From Labilibaculum sp. DW002 (GTDB taxonomy: Bacteria > Bacteroidota > Bacteroidia > Bacteroidales > Marinifilaceae): DNA of 64,000 nt. Position 1 is the first letter of the stretch. The number at the start of each line of letters is the position of its first letter. The stretch spans positions 124,001 to 188,000 of the forward strand of contig NZ_JAKJSC010000004.1 in NCBI RefSeq assembly GCF_029029525.1, written 5' to 3'. Below the pieces are notes generated by a model that searched no databases, was not told the origin of the DNA, and saw nothing but the letters and a program-made list of their open reading frames with translations. Both the position numbers and the translations under genes were made by a program. Positions 34,573-53,400 of the stretch are shown here, piece after piece.

Positions 34573-36954
34573 ATGAATAGAATACTATTATCAGTCATTT
34601 TTATCTACCTCTTTCATAATGCCATTGCGCAAGAAAAGGTATTTCCGGGAGCCGATGAGCAAAGCCCGTCCCGAGCCCAATATTTTTCATGGATCAACAA
34701 CACCAACGAAGGAACTACTGAGGAACAAACCCTTATCAATCTTGATTTTTTCCAGTGGCTTAATCAGGAGTACGGAATGGTTCTTGACATTTACGCTTTC
34801 GACGCGGGTGCTATCGATGGCAAACGATTTTACGGCGATATGCGTTCCGAACGTTTTAAAAAACAATTTCCCAATGGCTTCGATCCCCTTTACGAAAAAG
34901 CAAAAGCCATTAACACACGATTAGGTGTTTGGGGTGGTCCCGATGGTTTTGGAGATACCGAAGCTGAAAAGCAAGCCCGAATTGATCAGATGGTCAGCCT
35001 TTGTAAAGACTATGAGTTTGCCCTGTTTAAATTCGATGCCGTTTGTGGTCCTTTACGTCCTGAAAAGGAAGATGCCTTTATCGAAATGATGAAAGCCTGT
35101 CGCCAATACAGCCCCGACCTGATTTTGCTAAATCATCGCCTTGGCTTAAAGAAAAGCAAGCCCTATGCCACTACCTTTCTGTGGGGTGGTCAGGAAACTT
35201 ATATCGATGTGTTTACCACCAACAATACAACAGCACCCCATCACCGCGCCGGAGCTCTCGACAGAGGCTTAGTTCCCGGGTTAAAAAGATTAACTGAAGA
35301 TCATGGCGTTTGCATCTCATCCTGTATCGACTATTGGGATGATGATTTGATTATGCAAGCTTTCAACCGCAGCATGATATTGGCTCCTGAAATTTATGGT
35401 AACCCCTGGTTACTAAATGATGATGAATATCATAAATTAGCTGGAATATATAATTTGCATCGTAAATATGGAAAAATACTAGTTTATGGTATCGTACTAC
35501 CAGAAGAGAAATATGGGAATTCTGCGGTATCTAGAGGTGATGAAAATACACGCTTTGTAACCCTCACGAACCTGACTTGGGAACCAATGACCTATACCAT
35601 TAAACTGGACGAAGAAATCGGTTTAAGTACTGATAAAAATATTGAACTCAGACAATTCCATCCCACCGAAAAAATTATTGGTGATTTTAGTAAGGGAGAA
35701 GAAGTTGAAATTTTAGTTGAACCATTTCGTTCATGTTTACTTATGGCTAGTTCGAAAGTAACTGACGAACCTAGCTTGTTAGGAACAGATTATCAGGTGG
35801 TACGTAATGTCCCAAATCAACCTGTTCTAATTAAAATCCTTGGAAGACAAGGCACGACTACGAAAATTCAGCTGAAAAATGCAGGAGAATATAAAAGTGC
35901 TAGTCTTAATGGTAAGAATGTCAGTAAGTTATTGAATGGTAGATTGCTGAGGGTTAATTTTGAGGGAGATATATTGCAGAGTGAATCTCAGCGTAAATTA
36001 TCAAAGTTTGAATTGATCGAAACACCTTTTGATGATGAGGCTTTATACGAAGCCACCTGTTTTGCTGCCGATAATAACGCGCTCGAAGTCCGATCGCTTA
36101 AACGATCAGGCGCCACAAATATTCCTCAGGTGCAAAAAGCCAGAGATGCCTTCTTCAATCAAGACGTTTTTATAAAACGAGGCATATGGGACAAGAACCT
36201 CTTTGATGGCGATATGGAAACAGGCTACTGGCCAAGCAGAAAATACAATATCGATCAGAAAATTAAGGGCGGATGCTTCCGTCTTGACCTGGGTCGTATC
36301 ACCGATTTGGATCAAATCGTTATTAAAGTGCCTGACGAATTTTCGCTTCAACCTCTTCTGCTTGACGAAGGTAATTATGCTGAGGTTTCGTCAGATCTGA
36401 AAAAGTGGAAAACTATTACCTATTACGCTGGTGAAGAAATGGTCATCGATATAAATGAACCCATCCGTTACCTGAGACTGGGGGCACAACCGGGAAGAAT
36501 CGTTGAAATTGAAGCGAAGAAAAATGGAAAGATGCTGGACCGTAGCAATTGGACAGCCTCAAACCTCTTTGCACACGCTAAAAAAATGGAGACACAACAA
36601 ACATGGCAAGCCAACTTCAAATTGGATGAAATTCCTGAGGGCTCATACCTGTCGATTGCCATCAACGGCAAACACGGTACCGAGGGTGCTTATGCTGCTG
36701 CAAAGATAGACGGTGAATACCTGGGTTGTCCCGACCGTGCTGTTTCATTCCCATCCAACACCTGGGAGTTTGTGAATTCGAGACGAGACAGCAATTACAC
36801 CTATTACCTTCCTCTGGATAAAAGTATGATTGGTAAGAATATCGAGGTGTTTGTGATGGGATACGATAAGGAACATACAGACATCAAGCCGGAGGTTTGG
36901 ATATCGGCTGGGGCACTACCGTTTAAAGAGCAAATTTTAGAATTAAAGAAATAA
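34573..36954 (+). CDS. TIM-barrel glycoside hydrolase (clan GH-D-like) with discoidin domain, putative alpha-galactosidase
   Basis: A 793-residue exported enzyme (signal peptide MNRILLSVIFIYLFHNAIAQ). Residues ~30-330 look like a (beta/alpha)8 barrel: DIYAFDAGAIDG, RLGVWGGPDGFGD and LFKFDAVCGP, the last a likely KFD nucleophile strand as in clan GH-D (GH27/GH36). A beta domain follows (to ~420), then a linker domain. About residues 530-660 resemble an F5/8 type C (CBM32-like) module with LFDGDMETGYWPS. I cannot name the family with certainty. Its place between susD and GH97 makes an exo-acting alpha-galactosidase or related activity plausible. A stretch at ~35400-36040 is clearly more AT-rich than the rest of the gene. 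Confidence 0.65.
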   Translation: MNRILLSVIFIYLFHNAIAQEKVFPGADEQSPSRAQYFSWINNTNEGTTEEQTLINLDFFQWLNQEYGMVLDIYAFDAGAIDGKRFYGDMRSERFKKQFPNGFDPLYEKAKAINTRLGVWGGPDGFGDTEAEKQARIDQMVSLCKDYEFALFKFDAVCGPLRPEKEDAFIEMMKACRQYSPDLILLNHRLGLKKSKPYATTFLWGGQETYIDVFTTNNTTAPHHRAGALDRGLVPGLKRLTEDHGVCISSCIDYWDDDLIMQAFNRSMILAPEIYGNPWLLNDDEYHKLAGIYNLHRKYGKILVYGIVLPEEKYGNSAVSRGDENTRFVTLTNLTWEPMTYTIKLDEEIGLSTDKNIELRQFHPTEKIIGDFSKGEEVEILVEPFRSCLLMASSKVTDEPSLLGTDYQVVRNVPNQPVLIKILGRQGTTTKIQLKNAGEYKSASLNGKNVSKLLNGRLLRVNFEGDILQSESQRKLSKFELIETPFDDEALYEATCFAADNNALEVRSLKRSGATNIPQVQKARDAFFNQDVFIKRGIWDKNLFDGDMETGYWPSRKYNIDQKIKGGCFRLDLGRITDLDQIVIKVPDEFSLQPLLLDEGNYAEVSSDLKKWKTITYYAGEEMVIDINEPIRYLRLGAQPGRIVEIEAKKNGKMLDRSNWTASNLFAHAKKMETQQTWQANFKLDEIPEGSYLSIAINGKHGTEGAYAAAKIDGEYLGCPDRAVSFPSNTWEFVNSRRDSNYTYYLPLDKSMIGKNIEVFVMGYDKEHTDIKPEVWISAGALPFKEQILELKK

Positions 36955-36963
36955 TCAAAGAAT

Positions 36964-38913
36964 ATGAGAAAACTAATATGCTTCCTTAGTATGTTCATTT
37001 TAATTACCACAGTGAATGCTAAGGACTATCAACTAAAATCACCTAATCAAAAAATTAATATCACCGTTCATACAAATGGAGAAATTAAATTTTCAGTTGG
37101 ACATGAACAAAATCTATTCGTAGCACCTACAGTTATTGCAATGGAGCTGAAAAGAGGTCTTAGTTTGGGCGTAAATCCTGTTGTGATTAAAAAATATACC
37201 AATAGTGTTAGTAGAGAAATCAGACCTGAAGTTCGTGAGAAGAACGAGATTGTTATTGAAAATTACAATGAGATTAAATTGTCCTTCAAACAAAACTTCG
37301 ACTTGGTATTCAGAGCCTACGATAACGGGATTGCTTACCGTTTCGAAACCCGTTTCCCTGCTGAGATTACCGTGAAATCGGAAACCGGTAAGTATCATTT
37401 CCCTGACAATAAACTGGTATACTGGCCAAAGGAAAAAAGCTTTCATTCAAACAACCAGGTCTATTACGATTTTACTTCACTGGGTGAACTATCTTCAAAA
37501 GATCTGGGTTCTTTGCCCGTACTTATGACATCGGAAAATGCGCCAAGCATCTTAATTGGTGAAACCGATCTGGAAGACTACCCGGGCATGTGGTTCAATG
37601 GTGCCGAAGGAAACAGTTTGGTTTCTACCTTCCCTGCTTATCCTGACAAGACAGAACAGATTAAAGACAGAGATGTGTTTGTAAGAACCCGCATGAATTA
37701 TATCGCCAAAACAGAAGGTACGAGAACTTTCCCCTGGCGCTATGTGGCTATTGCTGAAAATGATGGTGACTTAATTACCAACCAATTATCATGGCTACTG
37801 GCTGACGAGAATGTGATTAAAGATCCATCGTGGATTAAACCCGGTAAAATTGCCTGGGACTGGTGGAATGCCAACAATATTTACGGGGTCGATTTCCGTG
37901 CGGGCATCAACACCGAAACCTATAAGTATTATATCGACTTTGCCGCTGACTATGGTTTGGAATACATCATTATGGACGAGGGTTGGTACGAACTGGGCGA
38001 TTTATTAAAGATTGTACCTGAAATCGACATGGAAGATCTGACTGCTTATGCCAAAGAAAAAGGTGTGGGTATTATCCTTTGGGTGGTTTGGAAAACGCTT
38101 GACGACCAGTTGGAAGTGGCTCTTGATCAATTCCAAAAGTGGGGCATTAAAGGCATTAAAGTCGACTTTATGGATAAGGATGACCAGTGGATGGTGAACT
38201 ATTACCACAAAATTGCCCGTGAATCGGCTAAGCGTGAGTTATTGGTTGATTTTCATGGTTCGTACAAGCCAGCCGGAATCCGTAGAAAATACCCTAACGT
38301 ATTGACTCGTGAAGGTGTGAATGGTGGTGAGCAATACAAGTGGAGCATGCGCCAAACGCCTGAACATAACCTGACCACGCCTTTCTCGAGAATGGTAGCA
38401 GGCCCTATGGATTATACACCCGGAGCCATGCGTAACGCACAAAAGAAAGATTACAAACCTATTTTCGATACACCTATGAGTATGGGAACCCGTTGCCACC
38501 AGCTGGGCATGTATGTGGTTTACGAAAGCCCTTTGCAGATGCTTTGCGACAACCCATCGAACTACAAGAAGGAGCCTGAGTGTATGGAGTTTCTTTCGGC
38601 TGTTCCTGCCGTTTGGGACGAAACCAAAGTTCTGAATGCTAAAATAGCTGACTACATCACTCTTGCCCGAAGAACAGGAAAAGAGTGGTATATAGGTGCT
38701 ATGACCGATTGGGACAAGCGCGAATTAAGCTTTGATCTATCCTTTTTGGCTAAAGGCAAATATAAAATGATCCTGTATCGCGACGGTGACAATGCCGACC
38801 GTAATGCCATCGATTATAAGAAAGAGATAAAAACAGTTGATAAAAGCAGCAAATTGAAGATTCACCTTGCACCAGGAGGTGGTTGGGTGGCAAGAATTGT
38901 TCCATTGAAATAA
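36964..38913 (+). CDS. GH97 glycoside hydrolase, retaining type (alpha-galactosidase-like)
   Basis: A 649-residue periplasmic enzyme (signal peptide ending near VNAKD). The N-terminal beta-sandwich, catalytic barrel and C-terminal beta domain of GH97 are all present. The motif GIKVDFMDKDDQ places an Asp at residue 401 at the nucleophile position of retaining GH97 alpha-galactosidases; the inverting SusB alpha-glucosidases lack it. The conserved Glu follows in REGVNGGEQYKW. The family assignment is firm; alpha-galactosidase specificity is inferred from the Asp. It starts 10 bp after the preceding gene and is co-transcribed. Confidence 0.93.
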   Translation: MRKLICFLSMFILITTVNAKDYQLKSPNQKINITVHTNGEIKFSVGHEQNLFVAPTVIAMELKRGLSLGVNPVVIKKYTNSVSREIRPEVREKNEIVIENYNEIKLSFKQNFDLVFRAYDNGIAYRFETRFPAEITVKSETGKYHFPDNKLVYWPKEKSFHSNNQVYYDFTSLGELSSKDLGSLPVLMTSENAPSILIGETDLEDYPGMWFNGAEGNSLVSTFPAYPDKTEQIKDRDVFVRTRMNYIAKTEGTRTFPWRYVAIAENDGDLITNQLSWLLADENVIKDPSWIKPGKIAWDWWNANNIYGVDFRAGINTETYKYYIDFAADYGLEYIIMDEGWYELGDLLKIVPEIDMEDLTAYAKEKGVGIILWVVWKTLDDQLEVALDQFQKWGIKGIKVDFMDKDDQWMVNYYHKIARESAKRELLVDFHGSYKPAGIRRKYPNVLTREGVNGGEQYKWSMRQTPEHNLTTPFSRMVAGPMDYTPGAMRNAQKKDYKPIFDTPMSMGTRCHQLGMYVVYESPLQMLCDNPSNYKKEPECMEFLSAVPAVWDETKVLNAKIADYITLARRTGKEWYIGAMTDWDKRELSFDLSFLAKGKYKMILYRDGDNADRNAIDYKKEIKTVDKSSKLKIHLAPGGGWVARIVPLK

Positions 38914-38950
38914 GAATATTTTAATCTTAAAAATAAATTGAAAATTTTGG

Positions 38951-40489
38951 ATGATGAGTTATTTTAAAAATAGTAGTCTAATAATTTTACTGATTGTTGC
39001 ACAAAGTTTTATTGCTTGTAAACAGGAAGCGAAAATAGATGAAAAACCCAATGTTTTATGGATCTGTCTTGAAGATACAGCGCCGCTATTGAGCTGTTAC
39101 GGTACCACCATAATTGAAACACCCAATATTGATAAACTTGCAAGTAAGGGGGAGATATTTACCAATGCTTTTATGCCTGCGCCGGTTTGCTCCGCGAGTC
39201 GTTCAAGTGTTATTACAGGTATGATGTCAACAACATTAGGCCTGCACAATCATCACAGTTCACGAACAGTAGAATCAGCTATATATCTCCCAGATACGAT
39301 CTCAACCATTCCAGAAATATTCAAGAAAAATGGATATTTCACCTTTAATAATGGAAAGGATGATTATAATTTTACATATGATAGACGAGATTTATATGAT
39401 CAAGATTATTCATATCATCCATTGTATGGTAAAAGTGGTAAGAGAATTGATCTATCTGTTTTAAAGGATAAAGGGCCATTTTTTGGACAAATACAATTGT
39501 ATGGAGGTAAGGAGATATTTTCATCTAAGTTTAAGGAGAGAGTAAAGTCTCCTGTAAACAGAGAAAAAATTAAACTTCCTCCGTATTTACCAAATCATCC
39601 TGCAATTATAGAAGAGTATGCAAATCATCTTGATGCGATACAAATTACAGATGGTCGACTTGGAGAAATTCTTACTAATCTAAAGGAGAATGGTTTGCTC
39701 AATAATACAATTATCTTCTTTTTCTCTGATCATGGAATGCGTTTAACCCGAAATAAGCAATTTCTATATGACGGTGGGATACACGTTCCACTTATTGTTG
39801 CTGACTTTAGGGAAAATAAGAAGATTAAAGCAAATTCCAGTAATGATATTTTAATAAGTGGAATTGATTTGGGGCCTAGTTCTCTTGCATTAGCAGGTAT
39901 ATCAATACCACAATATATGGAGGGAAGAGACGTCTTTGTTGAAGATTATAAAGAAAGAGAATTTGTAATTTCAACTAGAGATCGTTGCGATTTTTCAATT
40001 GACAGGATACGATCAGTAAGATCAAAAGAGTTTAAATATATTCGTAATTTTCTCACAGATAGACCATATATGCAACCAAGCTATATGGATGCTGATGGAG
40101 TTGAATTTGTGAAAGTTATGAAGCAATTGCATGCTGAAAATAAATTGGACTCCATTCAAGATCGATTCATGTCATTAGAGAGGCCTAAAGAGGAATTGTA
40201 TAATTTGAAAGAAGATCCATTTGAGTTGAACAATCTCGCATCAAATCCTAATTATTCTTCAGAATTATCTAAATATGCTAATGTGCTGAATCAATGGATT
40301 GTTGAGACGGATGATCAAGGGCAGTATCCCGAGAATGAAGAAGCTTTAAAGTTAATGCTTGGAATTTGGGGCAAGAATGCAATAAATCCAGAGTATGATC
40401 CTTTAAGAGTGAAGTATAAGGATTTTGGTGGATCCTTATATGATTTTAAGAATGCTAGATGGAAAAATGTTAATGTTCCAGTTGAATGA
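38951..40489 (+). CDS. Type I sulfatase, lipoprotein (PUL)
   Basis: A 512-residue sulfatase with lipobox SFIACKQ (Cys about residue 23). The catalytic motif is C80-S-A-S-R84 with ITG following, a full match to C-x-P/A-S-R. Metal-site residues appear in WICLEDT and FFFSDHGM. It is the last gene of the PUL and makes a sulfated glycan the likely substrate. Its DNA is markedly more AT-rich than the preceding GH97 gene, so it may have a different history. The first hairpin of the downstream array could serve as its terminator. Confidence 0.92.
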   Translation: MMSYFKNSSLIILLIVAQSFIACKQEAKIDEKPNVLWICLEDTAPLLSCYGTTIIETPNIDKLASKGEIFTNAFMPAPVCSASRSSVITGMMSTTLGLHNHHSSRTVESAIYLPDTISTIPEIFKKNGYFTFNNGKDDYNFTYDRRDLYDQDYSYHPLYGKSGKRIDLSVLKDKGPFFGQIQLYGGKEIFSSKFKERVKSPVNREKIKLPPYLPNHPAIIEEYANHLDAIQITDGRLGEILTNLKENGLLNNTIIFFFSDHGMRLTRNKQFLYDGGIHVPLIVADFRENKKIKANSSNDILISGIDLGPSSLALAGISIPQYMEGRDVFVEDYKEREFVISTRDRCDFSIDRIRSVRSKEFKYIRNFLTDRPYMQPSYMDADGVEFVKVMKQLHAENKLDSIQDRFMSLERPKEELYNLKEDPFELNNLASNPNYSSELSKYANVLNQWIVETDDQGQYPENEEALKLMLGIWGKNAINPEYDPLRVKYKDFGGSLYDFKNARWKNVNVPVE

Positions 40490-44783: not shown

Positions 44784-45683
44784 ATGGGTAGAATTACACA
44801 AATACAAAGCATGTCTCTTCACGATGGACCAGGAATAAGGACAACTGTTTTTATGAAAGGTTGTAACATGCGTTGTACTTGGTGTCATAACCCAGAAACA
44901 TGGAGGCATAGCAAACAAATTCAGTTTCTTGAAGATAAATGCATTGATTGCAAAGCTTGTCATCAAGCATCACTTCAATCAGAATTCACTCCAAATTTAT
45001 TGGTGAAGCCTAATCAATTTTCAATTTCAGAATTGATTACAATTTCAGAATCATGTTATACAGGAGCTTTAGAGCTTATAGGTAAAGATGTGTCTTTAGA
45101 TGATGTAATGAAAGCTGTTGAGAAGGATTGTGAATTTTTTGAAGAATCGGGTGGAGGAATTACCATTTCGGGAGGAGAACCATTGTTACAAGCTGAATTT
45201 GTGATCGAAATATTCAAAAAATGCAAGGAGAGGGGAATTCACACTGCTATTGAAACCAACTTGCATTCAAACACCGAATTAGTTGAACGTGTAGCCGAAT
45301 ATACCGACCTGTTTATGGTAGATATTAAATTGTGGAATTCCGAATTGCACAAGAAATGGACAGGCTTGGGAAATGAATTGGTTCTAAAAAATATCAAAGC
45401 ATTAAATGACTTAGGTAAATCCTTAATCATTCGTACACCGGTTATTCCTGGAGTGAATGATAATGTTAAAGAATTGAGCGCAATTGCTGATTTTGTTAGC
45501 GAATTGGATTGTTTGATAAACTATGAACTTTTGCCATACCATAGTCTAGGAAATGGAAAATACAAAGCTTTAGGCATAGAAGATCAAATGCCAAATTTTG
45601 ATCAGCTAAGTAAAGACCACTTTGAACAATTACAGAAAGAAGTGGCTAAACTGTGTAAGAAATTTAAAAAGAATTTAGAATAG
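44784..45683 (+). CDS. Glycyl radical enzyme activating protein (radical SAM)
   Basis: A 299-residue activase that would use S-adenosylmethionine to install the glycyl radical on the enzyme encoded next door. It has the radical SAM cluster motif C27-x3-C31-x2-C34 (GCNMRCTWCHNPE), the GGEPLLQ segment and an N-terminal SLHDGPGIRTTVFMKG typical of PflA-like proteins. An auxiliary cluster region holds C53, C56, C59 and probably C91, enough for one [4Fe-4S] cluster; many GRE activases other than PflA carry two. It begins 5 bp before the GRE gene. A TATTTTTG box at 44764-44771 is very close to the start. Confidence 0.93.
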   Translation: MGRITQIQSMSLHDGPGIRTTVFMKGCNMRCTWCHNPETWRHSKQIQFLEDKCIDCKACHQASLQSEFTPNLLVKPNQFSISELITISESCYTGALELIGKDVSLDDVMKAVEKDCEFFEESGGGITISGGEPLLQAEFVIEIFKKCKERGIHTAIETNLHSNTELVERVAEYTDLFMVDIKLWNSELHKKWTGLGNELVLKNIKALNDLGKSLIIRTPVIPGVNDNVKELSAIADFVSELDCLINYELLPYHSLGNGKYKALGIEDQMPNFDQLSKDHFEQLQKEVAKLCKKFKKNLE

Positions 45684-45688
45684 GTATC

Positions 45689-47845
45689 ATGAAGACAAAG
45701 TACGACTATAGAATTGCGGCCTTGAAAGAAAGGAAACTGAATCAAACTGATAATAAGATTCAAGTTGAAGGTTTGTTGGATGAGGATGATTATGGAAGAA
45801 TTGTACCACCTAAAGAGGGCGCTTGGGAAATTATACCTAACCATGAAGATGGTTCATTTTATGGCGTAAAAGCTTGGACTGATAACTTCTGTGATTTGAT
45901 GCAAAAGCATCCAACCTACGTTGATCCTAATGATGCATTTGCAGGAAGATGGATGTACTTCATGTCTAAAATGAGACCAAATCTATTTAATCCTGATTAT
46001 TCTTACGATCACTTAAAGCCAGAAATTGAAAAGTACAATATTATAGATGGTATTGGTTTTGATGCTCATTTTGCACCTGATTACGAGTTAGGATTACAAT
46101 TAGGATGGGGTGGTATTCTTAATAAAATTAGGAAATATAGAGATTTAAATGCCAAAGATGAAGAAACTAGATTGTTTTATGATTCTCATGAACGAGCTGT
46201 ACTAAGCATTCAGGTTTGGATCAAAAATACAATTGAAGAAATAAAAAGAAAGCTTCAGCTTGAGAAAGATGAGGCATTAAAGGCAAATCTTGAAGAAATG
46301 CTTGTAGTAAATCAAAATGTATTAAATGATGCTCCACAAACATTCAGAGAAGCTTGCCAATGGATGATTTGGTATCACCTTTCTTCAAGAACCTACAATC
46401 GTGATGGTGCAGGCGGACAGTTAGATACGCTTTTGTATCCATTTTATTTGAAAGATAAAGAGGAAGGAATTCTCGATGATGAAGCTGCAATTTATCAGCT
46501 TGCATGTTTCTTAATAAATGACCCTATTTATTGGCAAATGGGAGGACCAGATGGTAAAGGTGGTGATATGACAAATCATCTTTCTTATTTGATTCTAGAA
46601 GCTGGTGATAAGGTGAATACTTCGCTGAATTTAACCATTCGTGTTCATGATAAGTTAGATCAGAATTTTTTGAGAAAATCAGTTGAACTTCTGATTAAAA
46701 ATAAGAATGCATGGCCTCGTTATTCAGGAGATAAAGCGCTTGTAGAAGGTTATATGAAGAATGGTTACGAAGAGGAATCAGCTAGAAAGAGAATTGCTGT
46801 AGGTTGCAATTGGATGTCTCTTCCCGGATTGGAATATACCATGAATGATTTGGTGAAAATCAATGTTGGTAGAGTTTTTCAAGTGGCATATAATGAAATG
46901 TTGGAGGGTGGATTTGAAAATGCTTCAACGGAGAAATTGTATTCTATTTTTAATAAACATTTAATTCGTGGAGTAAAAGTTACTGCTGATTGTATTCGAT
47001 TTCAATTGGAACATCAAAGATATAATGAGCCTGAGTTATTATTGAACTTACTAAGTTACGGTCCTTTAGAAAAAGGATTGGATGCAAGTGCAGGTGGAGC
47101 GGAATATTATAATCTTGCAATTGATGGAGCTGGATTGGCAACAATTGCAGATTCGTTTGCAGCATTAGAGCAAAGAATTGAGGATGAAGGAAAAATTACT
47201 TGGGAAGAATTGGATTATCATTTGAAAGGCAATTGGGACGGAACTGATGGAGAGAGAATTCGTCAGTTAATGAATCGAAGCGATCGTTATGGTCAGGTTG
47301 ATTCACGTGGAGATATTTGGGCGAAAAAGATTTCTAAAGAGTTTACCACTTTGGTAAAAAATGAATCTGATATGGAAAAAGGACATTGTTTTATTCCGGG
47401 TTGGTTTTCATGGGCAAATACAGTTGGTTTAGGTCAAGCTCTTGAGGCAACACCTAATGGTAGATTTGCCAAAGCGCCAATTTCTCACGGTGCAAATCCA
47501 CACCCCGGATTTTCAAATGATGGAGCAGCAACAAGTATGGCTAAGTCGATTGCTCAAATTCAACCAGGTTATGGAAATACTGCGCCAATGCAATTAGAGT
47601 TAGACTTGTCCATGGCAAAAGGTGATCAGGTAGATAATTTTATTGCCTTAATTAAGACACACTTCAAGCTAGGGGGAACATTGATTAATGTGAACATTGT
47701 AGATCAGAAGAAAATATTAGCGGCTCACAAAAATCCTTCTCAGTATCCCGATTTAGTAGTTCGTATTACTGGATTTACAGCATATTTTGCAATGCTAACA
47801 CCTGAATTTAGACAGTTGGTTGTCGATCGTATTATAGAGAATTAA
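45689..47845 (+). CDS. Glycyl radical enzyme (PFL-like superfamily), unknown substrate
   Basis: A 718-residue anaerobic radical enzyme. The glycyl radical loop is RITGFTAYF with Gly695, 24 residues from the C-terminus as expected. The catalytic cysteine loop is AVGCNWMSLPG with Cys373. In the known dehydratase, lyase and decarboxylase families this loop reads GCVE, the Glu acting as base; here that position is Trp. It also lacks the Cys-Cys pair of pyruvate formate-lyase. Neighbours are its activase, a cupin-like protein, a sugar porter and a GH92 mannosidase, suggesting a sugar-derived substrate. The family is clear; the reaction cannot be named. Confidence 0.9.
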   Translation: MKTKYDYRIAALKERKLNQTDNKIQVEGLLDEDDYGRIVPPKEGAWEIIPNHEDGSFYGVKAWTDNFCDLMQKHPTYVDPNDAFAGRWMYFMSKMRPNLFNPDYSYDHLKPEIEKYNIIDGIGFDAHFAPDYELGLQLGWGGILNKIRKYRDLNAKDEETRLFYDSHERAVLSIQVWIKNTIEEIKRKLQLEKDEALKANLEEMLVVNQNVLNDAPQTFREACQWMIWYHLSSRTYNRDGAGGQLDTLLYPFYLKDKEEGILDDEAAIYQLACFLINDPIYWQMGGPDGKGGDMTNHLSYLILEAGDKVNTSLNLTIRVHDKLDQNFLRKSVELLIKNKNAWPRYSGDKALVEGYMKNGYEEESARKRIAVGCNWMSLPGLEYTMNDLVKINVGRVFQVAYNEMLEGGFENASTEKLYSIFNKHLIRGVKVTADCIRFQLEHQRYNEPELLLNLLSYGPLEKGLDASAGGAEYYNLAIDGAGLATIADSFAALEQRIEDEGKITWEELDYHLKGNWDGTDGERIRQLMNRSDRYGQVDSRGDIWAKKISKEFTTLVKNESDMEKGHCFIPGWFSWANTVGLGQALEATPNGRFAKAPISHGANPHPGFSNDGAATSMAKSIAQIQPGYGNTAPMQLELDLSMAKGDQVDNFIALIKTHFKLGGTLINVNIVDQKKILAAHKNPSQYPDLVVRITGFTAYFAMLTPEFRQLVVDRIIEN

Positions 47846-47846
47846 G

Positions 47847-48299
47847 ATGAAAGACATAAAATTAATGCAAGAATACAGACATAAGGGAGAAGGTTTTTCT
47901 CCCCTGTATATTAGTGGTGAATGGCAGGTCGCTCAAATTAATTACATCCAAAATCAAGAAATTGGTAATATAAAAAGCCTTGATATACATTTTAAGACCG
48001 ATGAACTATTTGTACTTTTAAAAGGAAGTGCCATATTGATTGCCGCGGAAAGAAAAGATAACAATTTTGTTTCTTATGAAATGACTTTTATGAAAGAAGG
48101 AATTGTGTATAATATACCTAAAATGGTTTGGCACAATATTGCTTTGCTCGAAGATGCCGAAGTATTGATTTTTGAAGATAAGAACAGCCATTTGGGAGAA
48201 TATGAAATTGTAAATCTTAGCATGGATGAACACATTAAATTGACCCAAAAACTTAAAAAAACTTTATTCGATAATACCCAAGTCGGAATAACTAAATAA
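47847..48299 (+). CDS. Cupin-like small protein of the GRE operon
   Basis: A 150-residue cytoplasmic protein beginning 1 bp after the GRE stop. Two stretches resemble cupin motifs: SLDIHFKTDELFVLLKGSA (motif 1, H...E...G) and GIVYNIPKMVWHNIAL (motif 2, G...P...H...N). They give His and Glu residues that could bind a metal. It could be an isomerase, epimerase or sugar-binding accessory acting on the GRE substrate or product; this is inference from position. I know no named family for it. Confidence 0.7.
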   Translation: MKDIKLMQEYRHKGEGFSPLYISGEWQVAQINYIQNQEIGNIKSLDIHFKTDELFVLLKGSAILIAAERKDNNFVSYEMTFMKEGIVYNIPKMVWHNIALLEDAEVLIFEDKNSHLGEYEIVNLSMDEHIKLTQKLKKTLFDNTQVGITK

Positions 48300-48319: not shown

Positions 48320-49723
48320 ATGACATCTCGAACTCAAAAAACAAACAAAACTTACTTGCTATTTATAGCATTAGCTGCCGCTTTTGGTGGTTTTCTATTT
48401 GGTTATGATACCGCAGTGATTTCCGGTACCATAGGATTCGTTAAAGATAAATTTGCACTGGATACGGTAATGGAAGGCTGGTTCGTTAGCTCTGCTTTGG
48501 TTGGCTGTATCGTTGGTGTTGCTTTTGCAGGTGAACTATCCGATCGCTTTGGAAGAAAAAAATCCTTGATCGCATCTGGTTTACTTTTTTCAATATCAGC
48601 AATTGGATGTGCCGTATGTGGGAGTCATACCGAATTGATTATTTACCGTTTGGTAGGTGGTTTGGGGGTTGGAATCGCTTCAATGTTATCACCTCTATAC
48701 ATTTCAGAAGTATCTCCTGCAAATGTTAGAGGACGAATGGTTGCATTATATCAATTCGCAATTACCCTTGGTATCCTTTGTGCTTATTTTGCGAATGCTT
48801 TATTATTAGGTGGAGGAGAATCAAGTGTTTCTTTTGCAGAGGGAAGCTTACTACATACCGTTTTTGTGAGTGAAGTTTGGCGTTCAATGTTTGGTAGTGA
48901 GGTTATTCCTGCACTTCTTTTCTTTGCAGCTATGTTTGTAGTACCTGAGAGTCCAAGATGGTACGCATCTAAGAACAGAAATGAAGAAGCTGGTGCTGTA
49001 TTAGCGAAAATTAATGGCGCCGAGGTAGCAAAAAAAGAATTGAAGTCGATTAAAAATGCGATAGAGAAAGAGGGCGAAAGCTCATGGTCTATGCTTTTGC
49101 AACCAGGAATTAGAATTGCTGTATTTGTAGGTGTTGCTTTGGCTCTTTTGTCACAGTTTACAGGAATTAACGCAATCATTTATTACGGACCTAGAATTAT
49201 GGAAGAAGCAGGTCTGCAATTGAGCGATGCGCTAGGTGGTCAGGTTGTGATTGGTGCTGTAAATGTGCTTGCAACGGTTTATGCAATCATGAAAATTGAT
49301 CAATTTGGACGTAAGAATCTAATGAAAGGTGGAATTATTGGAATGTTCATTTCTCTAATTGCGGTTGGAACTTTGTTCATTTTGGAAATGACTCAAGGGT
49401 ATTTATTGATAGTTTTCATCTTAACATTCATTATGTCATTTGCTGTTGGATACGGACCGGTTCTTTGGGTATTGTTATCTGAAATTTACCCAACTAAAGT
49501 TAGAGGTAGAGCAATGTCTGTTGCAACGCTCTCGGTTTGGGTAGGAACTGCCGTTATTGGTCAGGTTGTACCTTGGATGTTAGAAACTTTAACTCCTGCA
49601 GGAACATTTTTCATTTTTGCAGTATGTTGTTTACCTGTACCATTTATATTAAAATCGGTACCCGAAACAAAAGGATTGTCTCTGGAAGATATTGAAAGTG
49701 CTTGGGTGAAAGCAAAGGAATAA
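48320..49723 (+). CDS. MFS sugar porter (sugar:H+ symporter family)
   Basis: A 467-residue, 12-helix transporter of the sugar porter family (XylE/GalP/GLUT type). Signatures are GGFLFGYDTAVISG in helix 1, the loop motifs DRFGRKK and PESPRW, QFTGINAIIYYGP in helix 7 and PETKGLSLEDIE at the C-terminus. It should import a free monosaccharide across the inner membrane. It lies 20 bp after the cupin-like gene and 98 bp before a GH92 alpha-mannosidase gene, so mannose or a related hexose is a reasonable guess. Confidence 0.93.
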   Translation: MTSRTQKTNKTYLLFIALAAAFGGFLFGYDTAVISGTIGFVKDKFALDTVMEGWFVSSALVGCIVGVAFAGELSDRFGRKKSLIASGLLFSISAIGCAVCGSHTELIIYRLVGGLGVGIASMLSPLYISEVSPANVRGRMVALYQFAITLGILCAYFANALLLGGGESSVSFAEGSLLHTVFVSEVWRSMFGSEVIPALLFFAAMFVVPESPRWYASKNRNEEAGAVLAKINGAEVAKKELKSIKNAIEKEGESSWSMLLQPGIRIAVFVGVALALLSQFTGINAIIYYGPRIMEEAGLQLSDALGGQVVIGAVNVLATVYAIMKIDQFGRKNLMKGGIIGMFISLIAVGTLFILEMTQGYLLIVFILTFIMSFAVGYGPVLWVLLSEIYPTKVRGRAMSVATLSVWVGTAVIGQVVPWMLETLTPAGTFFIFAVCCLPVPFILKSVPETKGLSLEDIESAWVKAKE

Positions 49724-49820: not shown

Positions 49821-52448
49821 ATGAAATGTTTTTTTAGAAAATACCTTGTGATAGGTATAGCGTTTATTACCTTTTTTGGGTGCAATACGCAGTCAGGAAA
49901 GAAAGAATCAGTATTAAACTATGTGGATACAAGAGTTGGAACAGCAGCTAGCATTGCTGATATTACCGTAACAGAGGTAGAAGAACCGATGGGCTATGTT
50001 TCACCTATTGTTGGTAATCCATCTGCTTTAACACATTGGACACCACAAACTGCGGTTTTTACGAAGAGAGTAATTACGGTACCAGTACCCTATTGGTACG
50101 ATCAGGAAGCAATTCAAGGCTTTCGTGGAACTCGCTATCCCAATGGAGCAGTTGTAGGAGATTGGGGTGCAATGTGTGTAATGCCAATGACAGGTGAGGT
50201 AAAAATTGGCGCTGAGGATCGCGCATCTAAATTTAGTCATAATACTGAAGTGGCTAAACCACATTACTACGCTGTTCAATTAGATGATTATAATATTAAA
50301 GCTGAATTTACAGCGGCTGCTAAAACAGCATTTTTTCAGTTTACTTTTCCAGAATCAAATCAGTCGTCAATATTAATTGATGGTGTGTTTGTACCGGGAA
50401 ATTATAAAGTAATACCTGAGAGAAATGAAATTGAAGGATACTCAGTTATTGCCGGGCATTTCAAAAATCATTTTGTTGCTAAGTTTGATAAGAAATTCGA
50501 GGTTTATAATGTAGATGTTTTGCCAAATGTAGTTGATGCTAATCTGGTTCCAGAAGGATTCGAAGCTAAATACTATAACAACGATAAGTTGGAAGGAAAA
50601 CCGGATGTACTTGTTAACTATTCGGAATTGAACTACAATTGGCTGAAAGAACCGGCTAAAGGTGTTAAAGCTGACTTCTTTTCGGTTGAATATACAGGAA
50701 TTTTTGTTGCAAGACATACAGGAGAACACAGATTTGAATTAACGACTAAAGATGGTACTCGAATGTACATCAACGATGAAATGGTTATTGATCAGTGGAT
50801 GTATAGAGCAACAGGTACTAATACTCATAAGGTTCACTTAATAAAGGGGCAGAAATACGAAATTCGCATTGAATATTACGATGGATCAAGTACAACAGAG
50901 ATGCAATTACGATGTGCAGAGCCAGTGAAATTAGATCCTAGTCATGGGCCTAAAATGGCACTTAAAGGCGCTGATGGAAATGCAGTATATGTAACTTTTG
51001 CTACCAAAGATCAGGAGAAAGTGAAGATGAAAGTTGCTACTTCCTTAATTGATATTGCACAAGCAAGAGCAAATATGGAAGAAGAATTTCCTGAATTTGA
51101 TTTTAACAAAGCTGTAACGAAAAGTGCTGCCGTATGGGAGAAGGAGTTAAACATGATTCAGGTTGAAGGTACTGAAGATGATAAAGCTATTTTCTACACT
51201 GCCTTAACCAAGTGTTTTGTAAACCCTCGTAATCTAAATGAAGGAGGAAGGTATTTTAGTCCTTTCGATTATAAGGTTCACGAAGGAGAAATGTATACTG
51301 ATTTATCCATTTGGGATACGTTTAGATCTCTGCATCCTCTTTGGGTGATTTTAAAACCTCAGGAAACTACTGATATTATTAACGGAATGTTGAATGCCTA
51401 CAAAGAAGGTGGTTGGATTCCTAAATGGCCAAACCCATGGTATCGTAGCATCATGATGGGAACTCACTCCGATGCAGTAATTGCAGATGCATATGTGAAA
51501 GGAATTAAAGGTTTTGATACAGACTTAGCATTCGAGGCCATGTTGAAAAATGCGAACGTGAAAGGAAATCGTGGATTCTCTGGTCGAGTAGGCATAGATT
51601 ATTTTAATGATATAGGATACGTACCTACCGACATCTTCGGATTTTACGGGGAACCTGTTGCTAGAACACTTGAGTTCTCTTACGATGATTATTGTATTGC
51701 TCAAATGGCAAAAGCTTTGGGTAAAGATGATCAGCATGACGAATTTATGAAACGCTCTAAGCGATACGTAAATGTTTTGGATAAGGAAACGGGTTTAGTT
51801 CGTGGTAAGAAATTGAATGGTGAATGGTTAGCTCCTTACGATAAAAGTATCAGTGTTTGGGCACAGGGAACAGATCATGATACCGAAGTATATTATAAGA
51901 ATCATACCTTATTAGTGCCACATGATGTTCCAGGATTGGCTGAATTTATGGGTGGAAATGAGAAACTAGAAGCTTACCTTGATGAATTTTTTGATAATGA
52001 TATGTATTATGTAGGTGATGAGTTTTCAATGCATGCACCTTACCTATACAATTTCATTGGGACACCTTGGAAAACACAAAAAGTAGTTAGAGATATGCTT
52101 TTTAAGTATTTCTTTAATGATGTTGGAGGACTTCCTGGAAACGACGACTGTGGTCAAGTATCTTCGTGGTATGTATTTGGTGCTATGGGATTCTATCCAG
52201 CATGTCCTGGCGATCCAATTTATCAAATTTGTAGTCCAGTATTGGATAAGGTTTCATTGAACGTGGGTGAAGGAAAAACATTTACTGTTATTGCCAAAAA
52301 TAACTCAAGAGAAAACATGTACATCCAATCGGCAACATTAAATGGCAAGCCATATTCAAAGTGTACATTAGATCATAAAGATTTAGTTGCTGGCGGAGAA
52401 TTGGTATTTGAAATGGGAGCAGAGCCAAATAAAAATTGGGGAATATAG
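49821..52448 (+). CDS. GH92 alpha-mannosidase with inserted PA14 domain, lipoprotein
   Basis: An 875-residue exo-alpha-mannosidase of family GH92 (calcium-dependent, inverting). The lipobox is FFGCNTQ (Cys about residue 17). The N-terminal GH92 domain is interrupted by a PA14-like module (about residues 245-375, starting GFEAKYYNNDKLEG and with GEHRFELTTKDGTRMYIND), which may bind carbohydrate. The catalytic domain shows GTHSDAVIADAYVKG, YSYDD-type sequence (FSYDDYCIAQMAK) and GNDDCGQVSSWYVFGAMGFY. It is probably on the cell surface and feeds the sugar porter upstream. A terminator follows. Confidence 0.93.
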   Translation: MKCFFRKYLVIGIAFITFFGCNTQSGKKESVLNYVDTRVGTAASIADITVTEVEEPMGYVSPIVGNPSALTHWTPQTAVFTKRVITVPVPYWYDQEAIQGFRGTRYPNGAVVGDWGAMCVMPMTGEVKIGAEDRASKFSHNTEVAKPHYYAVQLDDYNIKAEFTAAAKTAFFQFTFPESNQSSILIDGVFVPGNYKVIPERNEIEGYSVIAGHFKNHFVAKFDKKFEVYNVDVLPNVVDANLVPEGFEAKYYNNDKLEGKPDVLVNYSELNYNWLKEPAKGVKADFFSVEYTGIFVARHTGEHRFELTTKDGTRMYINDEMVIDQWMYRATGTNTHKVHLIKGQKYEIRIEYYDGSSTTEMQLRCAEPVKLDPSHGPKMALKGADGNAVYVTFATKDQEKVKMKVATSLIDIAQARANMEEEFPEFDFNKAVTKSAAVWEKELNMIQVEGTEDDKAIFYTALTKCFVNPRNLNEGGRYFSPFDYKVHEGEMYTDLSIWDTFRSLHPLWVILKPQETTDIINGMLNAYKEGGWIPKWPNPWYRSIMMGTHSDAVIADAYVKGIKGFDTDLAFEAMLKNANVKGNRGFSGRVGIDYFNDIGYVPTDIFGFYGEPVARTLEFSYDDYCIAQMAKALGKDDQHDEFMKRSKRYVNVLDKETGLVRGKKLNGEWLAPYDKSISVWAQGTDHDTEVYYKNHTLLVPHDVPGLAEFMGGNEKLEAYLDEFFDNDMYYVGDEFSMHAPYLYNFIGTPWKTQKVVRDMLFKYFFNDVGGLPGNDDCGQVSSWYVFGAMGFYPACPGDPIYQICSPVLDKVSLNVGEGKTFTVIAKNNSRENMYIQSATLNGKPYSKCTLDHKDLVAGGELVFEMGAEPNKNWGI

Positions 52449-52514: not shown

Positions 52515-52566
52515 ATTTGTTGAATAAAAATTCTATTTTGCTGTGGCTAAATCATCCAATTCAATC

Positions 52567-53400
52567 ATGAAATTTAATCTCGATTCTTTTCTTACAGATT
52601 CAAAAGAGGTCTTTCATCTTGCGCGAGTCACCTTGCGTTCGAAAGACGATATTGAGATGCATACACATGATTATGCAGAGATTTTTTGGATAGAGGAGGG
52701 AGAAGGATTTCATTTGGTTAATGGAGAGAAAGTGAAAATATTTCCGGGTTATTTATGCACGCTTCGTCCTGGTGATGAGCATACCTTTATTGCAAAATCA
52801 GCAACCAAAGGCTTAACAATTACCAATCTTGCTTTTAAAAGTAGCACTCTAGATTATTATAGAGAACGATATTTTCCAGCTACCAATCTTTATTTCTGGA
52901 GTAAAAGTCATTTGCCATTTAGCTTTCGAGTTCCTAAAGAGGAGCTGTGTTTGTTGAGTGGGAAAGCTGATCATATCATCAATCAAACCAAGAACAACAT
53001 TCATTTGGATCGATTGCTCTTGTTTATTTTTGAAATAATAGAACCATCCTACGAGAGTTATGATCCCGAAATGCCTTACTGGCTGCAGTCTGCACTGGAA
53101 AATTACAACTCACCAGTAGTGTTCAAAGAAGGAGTTGATGGTTTTTTATCCATAGCGAATAAATCGCTGGATCATTGCAATCGAATTTTGAAAAAGTATA
53201 CCGGAAAGACCTTAACGGATACCATAAACGAAGCTAAAATTAAGTATGCAGCTCGCTTATTAATTATGACCGATGCTTCTGTAAAGAATATTGCTTCGGA
53301 TTGTGGGTATGGGAATATTGGTTATTTCTATCGCGTGTTTAAAACGCATTATAAAATGTCGCCTAAAGACTATCGAACATACAATAAGCGAATAATATAA
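52567..53400 (+). CDS. AraC family transcriptional regulator with cupin sensor domain
   Basis: A 277-residue cytoplasmic regulator. I use the ATG at 52567 (MKFNLDSFL); an in-frame GTG at 52543 would add eight residues. An AraC-type cupin lies in the N-terminal ~120 residues (MHTHDYAEIFWIEEGEGFHLV, split as HTHDYAEIFWI and GEGFHLV). The C-terminal two-helix-turn-helix AraC domain has NIASDCGYGNIGYFYRVFK. It follows the GH92 gene and terminator and is a candidate regulator of the GRE/mannosidase operon, which is inference from position. Confidence 0.92.
   Translation: MKFNLDSFLTDSKEVFHLARVTLRSKDDIEMHTHDYAEIFWIEEGEGFHLVNGEKVKIFPGYLCTLRPGDEHTFIAKSATKGLTITNLAFKSSTLDYYRERYFPATNLYFWSKSHLPFSFRVPKEELCLLSGKADHIINQTKNNIHLDRLLLFIFEIIEPSYESYDPEMPYWLQSALENYNSPVVFKEGVDGFLSIANKSLDHCNRILKKYTGKTLTDTINEAKIKYAARLLIMTDASVKNIASDCGYGNIGYFYRVFKTHYKMSPKDYRTYNKRII

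Follow-up and report, generated by a model that had tools for sequence, protein, structure and literature searches.

What reaction is left to an oxygen-sensitive glycyl radical enzyme (GRE) when the glutamate of its Cys loop has given way to a tryptophan? This question is raised by a gene of Labilibaculum sp. DW002 lying in a stretch of 64,000 nucleotides (positions 124,001 to 188,000 of contig NZ_JAKJSC010000004.1, hereafter the window). Its product is called here the CNW GRE, after the motif Cys373-Asn374-Trp375. A first-pass annotation of the window, made from its letters alone, had reported an intact radical loop (Gly695) and catalytic Cys373, the replacement of the usual Glu by Trp, and a companion gene set pointing to a carbohydrate substrate. 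The alignments place the CNW GRE in a distinct family, and there is about an even chance that it is a radical lyase or dehydratase belonging to a module that catabolises a mannose-type sugar, with a base supplied from elsewhere.

C373-N374-W375 aligns without gap to C433-V434-E435 of the B12-independent glycerol dehydratase (GDH, residue numbers counted from the alignment) and to the Cys-Val-Glu of E. coli PflD. The match to GDH runs without gap along the loop, C373-N-W-M-S-L-P-G-L-E-Y-T-M-N-D387 of the window lying over C433-V-E435-P-Q-K-P-G-K-T-E-G-W-H-D447. When 71 GREs are aligned together, GCNWMSLPG, including Cys373 and Trp375, is kept in all 33 family rows that cover the site, and Gly695, followed by Phe, in 32/32 (among the family members, L052 stops before both loops and was left out of the rows, and L047 stops before the Gly loop). 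Since Trp375 is found in every row, a sequencing error is excluded, and both the radical residues and the substitution stand as first annotated. The Gly loop reads RITGFTAYF, most GREs having RVxGY. In the 38 other GREs, the position of Trp375 is occupied by Glu (33), Val (two), Ser (two, in the pyruvate formate-lyase-type rows L070 and L072) or Gly (one). The earlier picture of the known loops was therefore right about the adjacent Cys of pyruvate formate-lyase (PFL; CCVSP in E. coli PflB), but too general in giving Glu to all others. Glu-less loops read CCVSP in PflB and L070, GCVV in L054 and L076, and GCLG in L077.

Cys-X-Glu (CXE) is described as conserved in the Cys loop of GRE eliminases in two reports, each available in part (PMC7077986, PMC8473560), and E-to-Q variants are inactive in HypD (PMC7077986) and IslA (PMC8473560). 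C-N-W in 33/33 family rows departs from this motif, which PflD and YbiW possess, and G-C-N-W also lacks the second Cys of PFL; identity as a PFL was dropped on account of the single Cys. The open reading frame (ORF), with an ATG start, codes for a full-length GRE and matches the Pfam families PFL-like (E 2.6e-95, 320.9 bits, cut-off 24.3) and Gly_radical (E 9.2e-14, 52.3 bits, cut-off 22.2). The twelve named NCBIfam GRE families listed all score under their curated cut-offs, for instance TIGR01774 (245.5 versus 678.2) and HypD (188.8 versus 1100). An annotation as trans-4-hydroxyproline dehydratase was rejected, the score being far below the cut-off and the genome having a separate GRE with GCVETG. 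This HypD-like GRE (L059:8930-11308) is one of two further GREs of the genome, the other being PFL-like as judged from a partial match.

The structure predicted from 28 family sequences (pLDDT 81, pTM 0.86) has the GRE fold from end to end, superimposing on PflD with a Z-score of 34.5 and an r.m.s.d. of 2.9 over 674 residues. The best 40 structural matches of the model are PFL-type GRE entries (Z 26.6–34.5), among them PflD with 1,5-anhydromannitol-6-phosphate (33.8), GDH (33.6), YbiW with 1,5-anhydroglucitol-6-phosphate (32.4) and PFL (26.8). Because structural rows within 1 Z are tied, the fold does not single out a nearest relative. By profile, the nearest solved GRE is PflD (E 2.7e-65); PflD, CutC and GDH come first, with PFL at E 1e-24 and benzylsuccinate synthase at E 1.5e-25. 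As the CXE motif is missing, the window protein falls outside the CXE eliminases, although each feature tested marks it as a GRE.

The family comprises 34 loci: 30 from a contig scan with two family-specific peptide patterns, which is blind to distant intermediates, two plasmid-borne members (Flammeovirga kamogawensis and Persicobacter psychrovividus), one from a relative's genome, and the window. The hosts are Bacteroidota, with one metagenome-assembled genome (MAG) labelled Chlorobiota. Members are 60–99% identical to the window protein across genera, the 99% being reached in a Labilibaculum MAG, in line with a host close to Labilibaculum; the next step down is at about 30%. Family profile scores are at least 1232 bits and all others at most 249; 59 relatives' genomes gave one further member at 87% before a drop to about 30%; plasmid records gave the two members at 64–65%, then about 28%. 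The family is rare: in 395 Bacteroidota genomes searched at E up to 1e-70, the own genome alone was matched, and no intermediate between CNW and canonical GREs was found. A phylogeny had been proposed earlier to see whether C-N-W forms its own clade. In a tree made by a quick method, from which six near copies or fragments were left out and in which the program flagged long branches, all 27 family rows used are separated from the rest by a single branch (support 100), and their stem measures 5.1 changes per column. Judged by these sequences, the CNW GREs form a single distinct clade whose stem is very long. No close characterised homologue, which would have told against a new chemistry, was found: solved GREs are 17–24% identical over the structural alignment. 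No description of the family was found in the open-licence literature, although it may be in print elsewhere. On the two large plasmid records (L021, L022), the GRE module is accompanied by GH47 and GH130-type genes.

Loss of the Glu could mean that the protein has ceased to be a catalyst and is conserved for a structural or regulatory role, as the inactive Gln variants of HypD and IslA might suggest. This is very improbable. Cys373 and Gly695 are conserved without exception, identity remains high across genera, and a dedicated activase gene adjoins the GRE gene in the window and is present in 31/31 loci with upstream DNA (the remaining three of the 34 have at most 62 bases upstream). An inactive pseudo-enzyme was dropped as a candidate because the radical machinery is fully conserved.

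If the enzyme is active, a different base or a different chemistry is a reasonable expectation in view of the E-to-Q variants, and candidate residues can be proposed from the alignment. H127 and D387 are invariant in 33/33 family rows and match H164 and D447 of GDH. H127 is common to 32 of the 38 other GREs, and D387 recurs in PflD, in the GDH-like L075 and in some further rows. Invariants specific to the family include Y236, R238, W282, Q283, R344, N374, W375, E382, N386, E498, W575, T578 and H600. The stretch RTYNRDGAGGQ replaces ESNGHSISxGR and is 2–3 residues shorter, so that D239 pairs with GDH S282 (and R238 with H281) only if the alignment is ungapped from the right. A relocated base would have a precedent in HypD, where Asp278 on strand 2 has been proposed as acid/base and the D278N variant has no activity, although the CXE Glu is essential there too (PMC7077986, available in part), as it is in IslA (PMC8473560, likewise).

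Alternatively, the enzyme may dispense with such a base and perform a radical reaction of the PFL kind on the same kind of sugar; cleavage of a carbon-carbon bond, epimerisation and addition come into question. PFL itself manages without the Glu, with Ser in its rows, and the active-site region of the CNW GREs is remodelled, with many family-specific invariant residues of polar or aromatic type (among them R238, W282, R344, E382, E498, W575 and H600) located there. However, the second Cys of PFL is absent, the profiles group the family with the eliminases and far from PFL and benzylsuccinate synthase, and the neighbouring genes suggest no second substrate. A base-free reaction is thus considered unlikely.

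Another lineage bears on the same residue. In L054 and L076 (Peptoclostridium and Acetoanaerobium, Peptostreptococcales), GCVV stands for GCVE and a Glu replaces the near-universal His of strand 1 (H127 here). By alignment, these two GREs are another Glu-less lineage, with an acid apparently gained elsewhere.

The nature of the substrate was approached through the neighbouring genes, counted by tblastn at the 34 loci with unequal flanks. Besides the activase, a small cupin is found at 27/34 loci (among the seven others, downstream DNA amounts to 0 bases in L047 and 2 bases in L052), and at least one mannosidase family at 24/34 in the DNA available (GH92 at 16, GH47 at 10, GH130 at three and GH38 at one). 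The other neighbours are an AraC-family regulator (21/34), a RhaT-type importer (12), a SusC-type gene (12), a sugar porter (four) and an SSS transporter (two). Mannosidase domains were confirmed with Pfam in the window, in L045 (PF07971, 561.5 bits) and in L036 (PF01532, 393.3 bits), all above cut-off; at the other loci they rest on tblastn. The own genome has 11 GH92 domains, and 3.2% of its DNA lies within 10 kb of one. The binomial probability of GH92 at 16/34 loci by chance is about 1.5e-15, a rough figure given the relatedness of the loci and the differences among genomes. In the window, the genes from activase through GRE, cupin, porter and GH92 to AraC form a tight series with gaps of 5, 1, 20, 97 and 94 bases. 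The carbohydrate context proposed at first is thus borne out, and the neighbours support narrowing it to mannose. As genes for mannose release and import stand beside it, the GRE probably breaks down a mannose-type sugar.

The cupin provides a further link. Its best relative in the PDB is CA_C3497 (3d0j; E 1.1e-27, fold Z 17.2), which is of the same cupin family and itself uncharacterised. By fold, sugar 3,4-ketoisomerases come next (Z about 11), along with RmlC-type epimerases; the likeness to the former may reflect a common arrangement only. The cupin was rejected as a known mannose isomerase, since no Pfam family reaches its cut-off and the match to WbuC is weak and below cut-off. Two loci with such a cupin but no GRE nearby were examined, one with a paralogue in the own genome (C1:1360134, within L058), the other with a homologue from a different Bacteroidota genome (G192, locus L080). 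In both, the cupin gene stands beside genes for a GH38 α-mannosidase, a sugar porter, a short-chain dehydrogenase/reductase (SDR), a lactonase, a UxuA-type dehydratase and a RraA-like protein. In L080, UxuA, RraA-like, GH76 and FGGY genes were identified by scanning, and SDR, lactonase, porter and GH38 genes by resemblance to L058. These clusters likely serve to oxidise free mannose via mannonate by a non-phosphorylating route. Whether or not a GRE is present, the cupin therefore goes with mannose. L058 (C1:1350500-1370000 of the own genome) additionally contains CoA-transferase and enoyl-CoA hydratase genes, and L080 additionally contains GH92-like, GH76 and FGGY kinase genes.

The following course is proposed for the mannose-type module. 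α-Mannosidases of GH92 or GH47, presumably secreted, would free D-mannose, which a sugar porter or RhaT-type symporter would bring into the cell. The activase would generate the glycyl radical on Gly695, this radical would oxidise Cys373 to a thiyl radical, and the thiyl would abstract hydrogen at one of the carbons of the manno-configured pyranose. A keto or deoxy sugar, for which few dedicated downstream enzymes would be needed, could then arise by redox-neutral 1,2-elimination or by ring opening. The closest relatives of the family would lead one to expect this radical course. Trp375, in place of the Glu base, may lie stacked against the sugar ring. The task of acid/base may have passed to other invariant residues, most likely Asp387, Asp239 or Arg238 (second barrel strand), and His127; E382 is a further candidate for the role of the Glu, unless the reaction needs no base. 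The cupin might act on the same sugar or on its keto product by interconverting anomers or isomers. Products considered, by chemical analogy, are 3-deoxyhexosulose (abstraction at C2, loss of the C3 hydroxyl), 2-deoxyaldonolactone (abstraction at C1, loss of the C2 hydroxyl), fructose by ring opening, and 1,5-anhydrofructose by loss of the C1 hydroxyl. In a more specific version, the GRE would act directly on free unphosphorylated D-mannose from α-mannans or N-glycans, with the Trp as platform and a base from another strand, by-passing hexokinase and mannose-6-phosphate isomerase. This version is put forward tentatively and is more probably wrong than right. The own genome matches the catalytic family of type I phosphomannose isomerase (the C-terminal family is unmatched); with a standard mannose-6-phosphate isomerase present, the GRE is not its forced replacement.

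Several observations weigh against the mannose-type module or the details above. The Cys loop is modelled at pLDDT below 50 over residues 376–386, so that the structural check suggested earlier upholds the fold but gives an unreliable loop, and the register around R238-D239 is ambiguous where the family is short by 2–3 residues. At L023, L026, L037, L042 and L051, no cupin was found although downstream DNA is available. No kinase, aldolase or dehydrogenase recurs downstream, so that the fate of the product is not visible; the lack of dedicated downstream enzymes suggests a product joining general metabolism. In the DNA available, mannosidases were not seen at 10/34 loci (L026, L027, L029, L030, L034, L035, L038, L039, L042 and L043), six of which have RhaT. 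Among these, L027 adjoins genes for a thiamine pyrophosphate enzyme, an SSF transporter, an aldehyde dehydrogenase, a TIM-barrel protein and a Gfo/Idh protein, a set that looks like inositol catabolism; L029 adjoins GH36 and PL8, and at L042 a sialidase-like gene and one of the DHDPS family are adjacent. RhaT takes its name from L-rhamnose, and a GH28 domain is present in a RhaT-GH92 fusion of L044. Such contexts, with the RhaT-family importer at 12/34 loci, could indicate that the substrate is another sugar accompanied by mannosidase clusters, such as L-rhamnose, inositol or N-acetylmannosamine. This is improbable, as the inositol-type and sialidase-type contexts occur once each among the loci scanned against 24/34 for mannosidases, the RhaT domain is fused to GH92 in four loci, and the cupin partner accompanies α-mannosidases even without the GRE. 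In addition, L043 adjoins a URO-D-family gene.

The four fusions (L044, L045, L046 and L048, from rumen or uncultured Bacteroidales) have the RhaT-type transporter in frame with the GH92 start. Their domains were confirmed with Pfam for L044 alone, in which GH28 follows GH92.

GREs acting on sugar-like rings are already known. Ma et al. (JACS 2024) reportedly described PflD and YbiW of E. coli as ring-opening GREs on 1,5-anhydrohexitol phosphates. According to a source available in part, PflD converts 1,5-anhydromannitol-6-phosphate to 1-deoxyfructose-6-phosphate, YbiW ring-opens 1,5-anhydroglucitol-6-phosphate (see also PDB titles 8id0 and 8id7), and the phosphorylated substrates enter via the phosphotransferase system (PTS; PMC12441222). 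A Streptococcus namesake of PflD has been solved with 1,5-anhydromannitol-6-phosphate (PDB title 8id0). The first-pass remark that sugar-acting GREs are rarely reported has to be amended: YbiW and PflD, both with the Glu, have been known since 2024. What is new here is the conserved Glu-to-Trp family, its mannose context and its link to the cupin.

The CNW GRE might accordingly be thought a divergent ring-opening enzyme of the PflD type, with an anhydro- or phosphorylated mannose derivative as substrate. In profile and structure comparisons alike, PflD is the best match. It also carries an Asp at the position of D387 and, like YbiW, acts on a hexose-like ring as proposed for the CNW GRE. Such a substrate is nevertheless quite improbable. 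PflD (L071) and YbiW retain Cys-X-Glu, are about 20–27% identical to the CNW GRE and have about 770–810 residues against 718. Their substrates are phosphorylated and PTS-imported, whereas the importers near the CNW GREs belong to non-phosphorylating families, no PTS or kinase was recognised among the recurring neighbours in the part of the neighbours scanned, and no anhydromannitol source was recognised near the GRE.

Other characterised GREs share the fold but differ at the critical positions. GDH (1r8w, 1r9d, 4mtj) has the matching His and Asp noted above, but E435 where the CNW GRE has W375. HypD (6vxc, Z 32.0) offers the strand-2 Asp as acid/base, but retains its essential CXE Glu and acts on an amino acid. 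PflB also lacks Glu at the W375 position, but it has two adjacent Cys, and its sequence similarity is weak and mostly C-terminal.

A clade that retains the radical machinery but not the CXE Glu offers a natural experiment on the purpose of that residue. Should mannose prove to be the substrate, bacteria from marine and gut habitats would channel an ordinary hexose into catabolism by radical chemistry. Models of how yeast mannan and N-glycans are used anaerobically would then change, and the GRE repertoire would gain a sugar reaction. The matter lends itself to testing, as the operon is small, hosts such as Labilibaculum filiforme and Flammeovirga are cultured, and the candidate substrates are obvious.

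Table. Positions of the CNW GRE gene, its neighbours in the window and the RhaT-GH92 fusions of other loci.
Feature	Position	Strand	Basis
Activase (glycyl-radical enzyme activase, radical SAM)	44784..45683	+	ORF; TIGR02494 347 bits versus cut-off 174
CNW-family GRE, 718 aa, C373-N374-W375, G695	45689..47845	+	ORF, Pfam, alignments, predicted fold, tree
GRE codons 373-375 (Cys-Asn-Trp), Cys loop	46805..46813	+	Computed from ORF start; alignment
GRE codon 695 (radical glycine)	47771..47773	+	Computed from ORF start; alignments
Small cupin, 150 aa, invariant H48, E53, H96 (candidate metal ligands)	47847..48299	+	Alignments
Sugar porter family MFS transporter (XylE-like)	48320..49723	+	PF00083 E 1.3e-121; TIGR00879 above cut-off
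GH92 exo-α-mannosidase family protein, PA14 insert	49821..52448	+	PF07971 E 2.5e-160, 534.9 bits
AraC-family regulator, cupin-like sensor	52543..53400	+	Pfam; its family at 21/34 GRE loci
RhaT-GH92 fusions	L044:12543-17480, L046:12535-17490, L048:2357-4324, L045:12566-13624	n/a	Reading frame

The activase of the window keeps the CX3CX2C motif, and by motif count both of its auxiliary CX2CX2CX3C cluster motifs are gone. Among 29 activases examined, one of them a fragment, both auxiliary motifs are absent in four Labilibaculum-type loci and one of the two in three Flammeovirga loci (together the window, L023, L024, L025, L033, L036 and L050); 21 others retain both. This loss is a natural test of the role of the extra clusters.

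Upstream in the window, positions 34573-40489 carry GH97 α-galactosidase-like genes, sulfatase genes and a 793-residue ORF without Pfam match. The GRE with the GCLG loop (L077, 1889-4384) is from plasmid Mpl of Novosphingobium sp. PP1Y, a genus usually regarded as aerobic, and the record has no gene annotation there.

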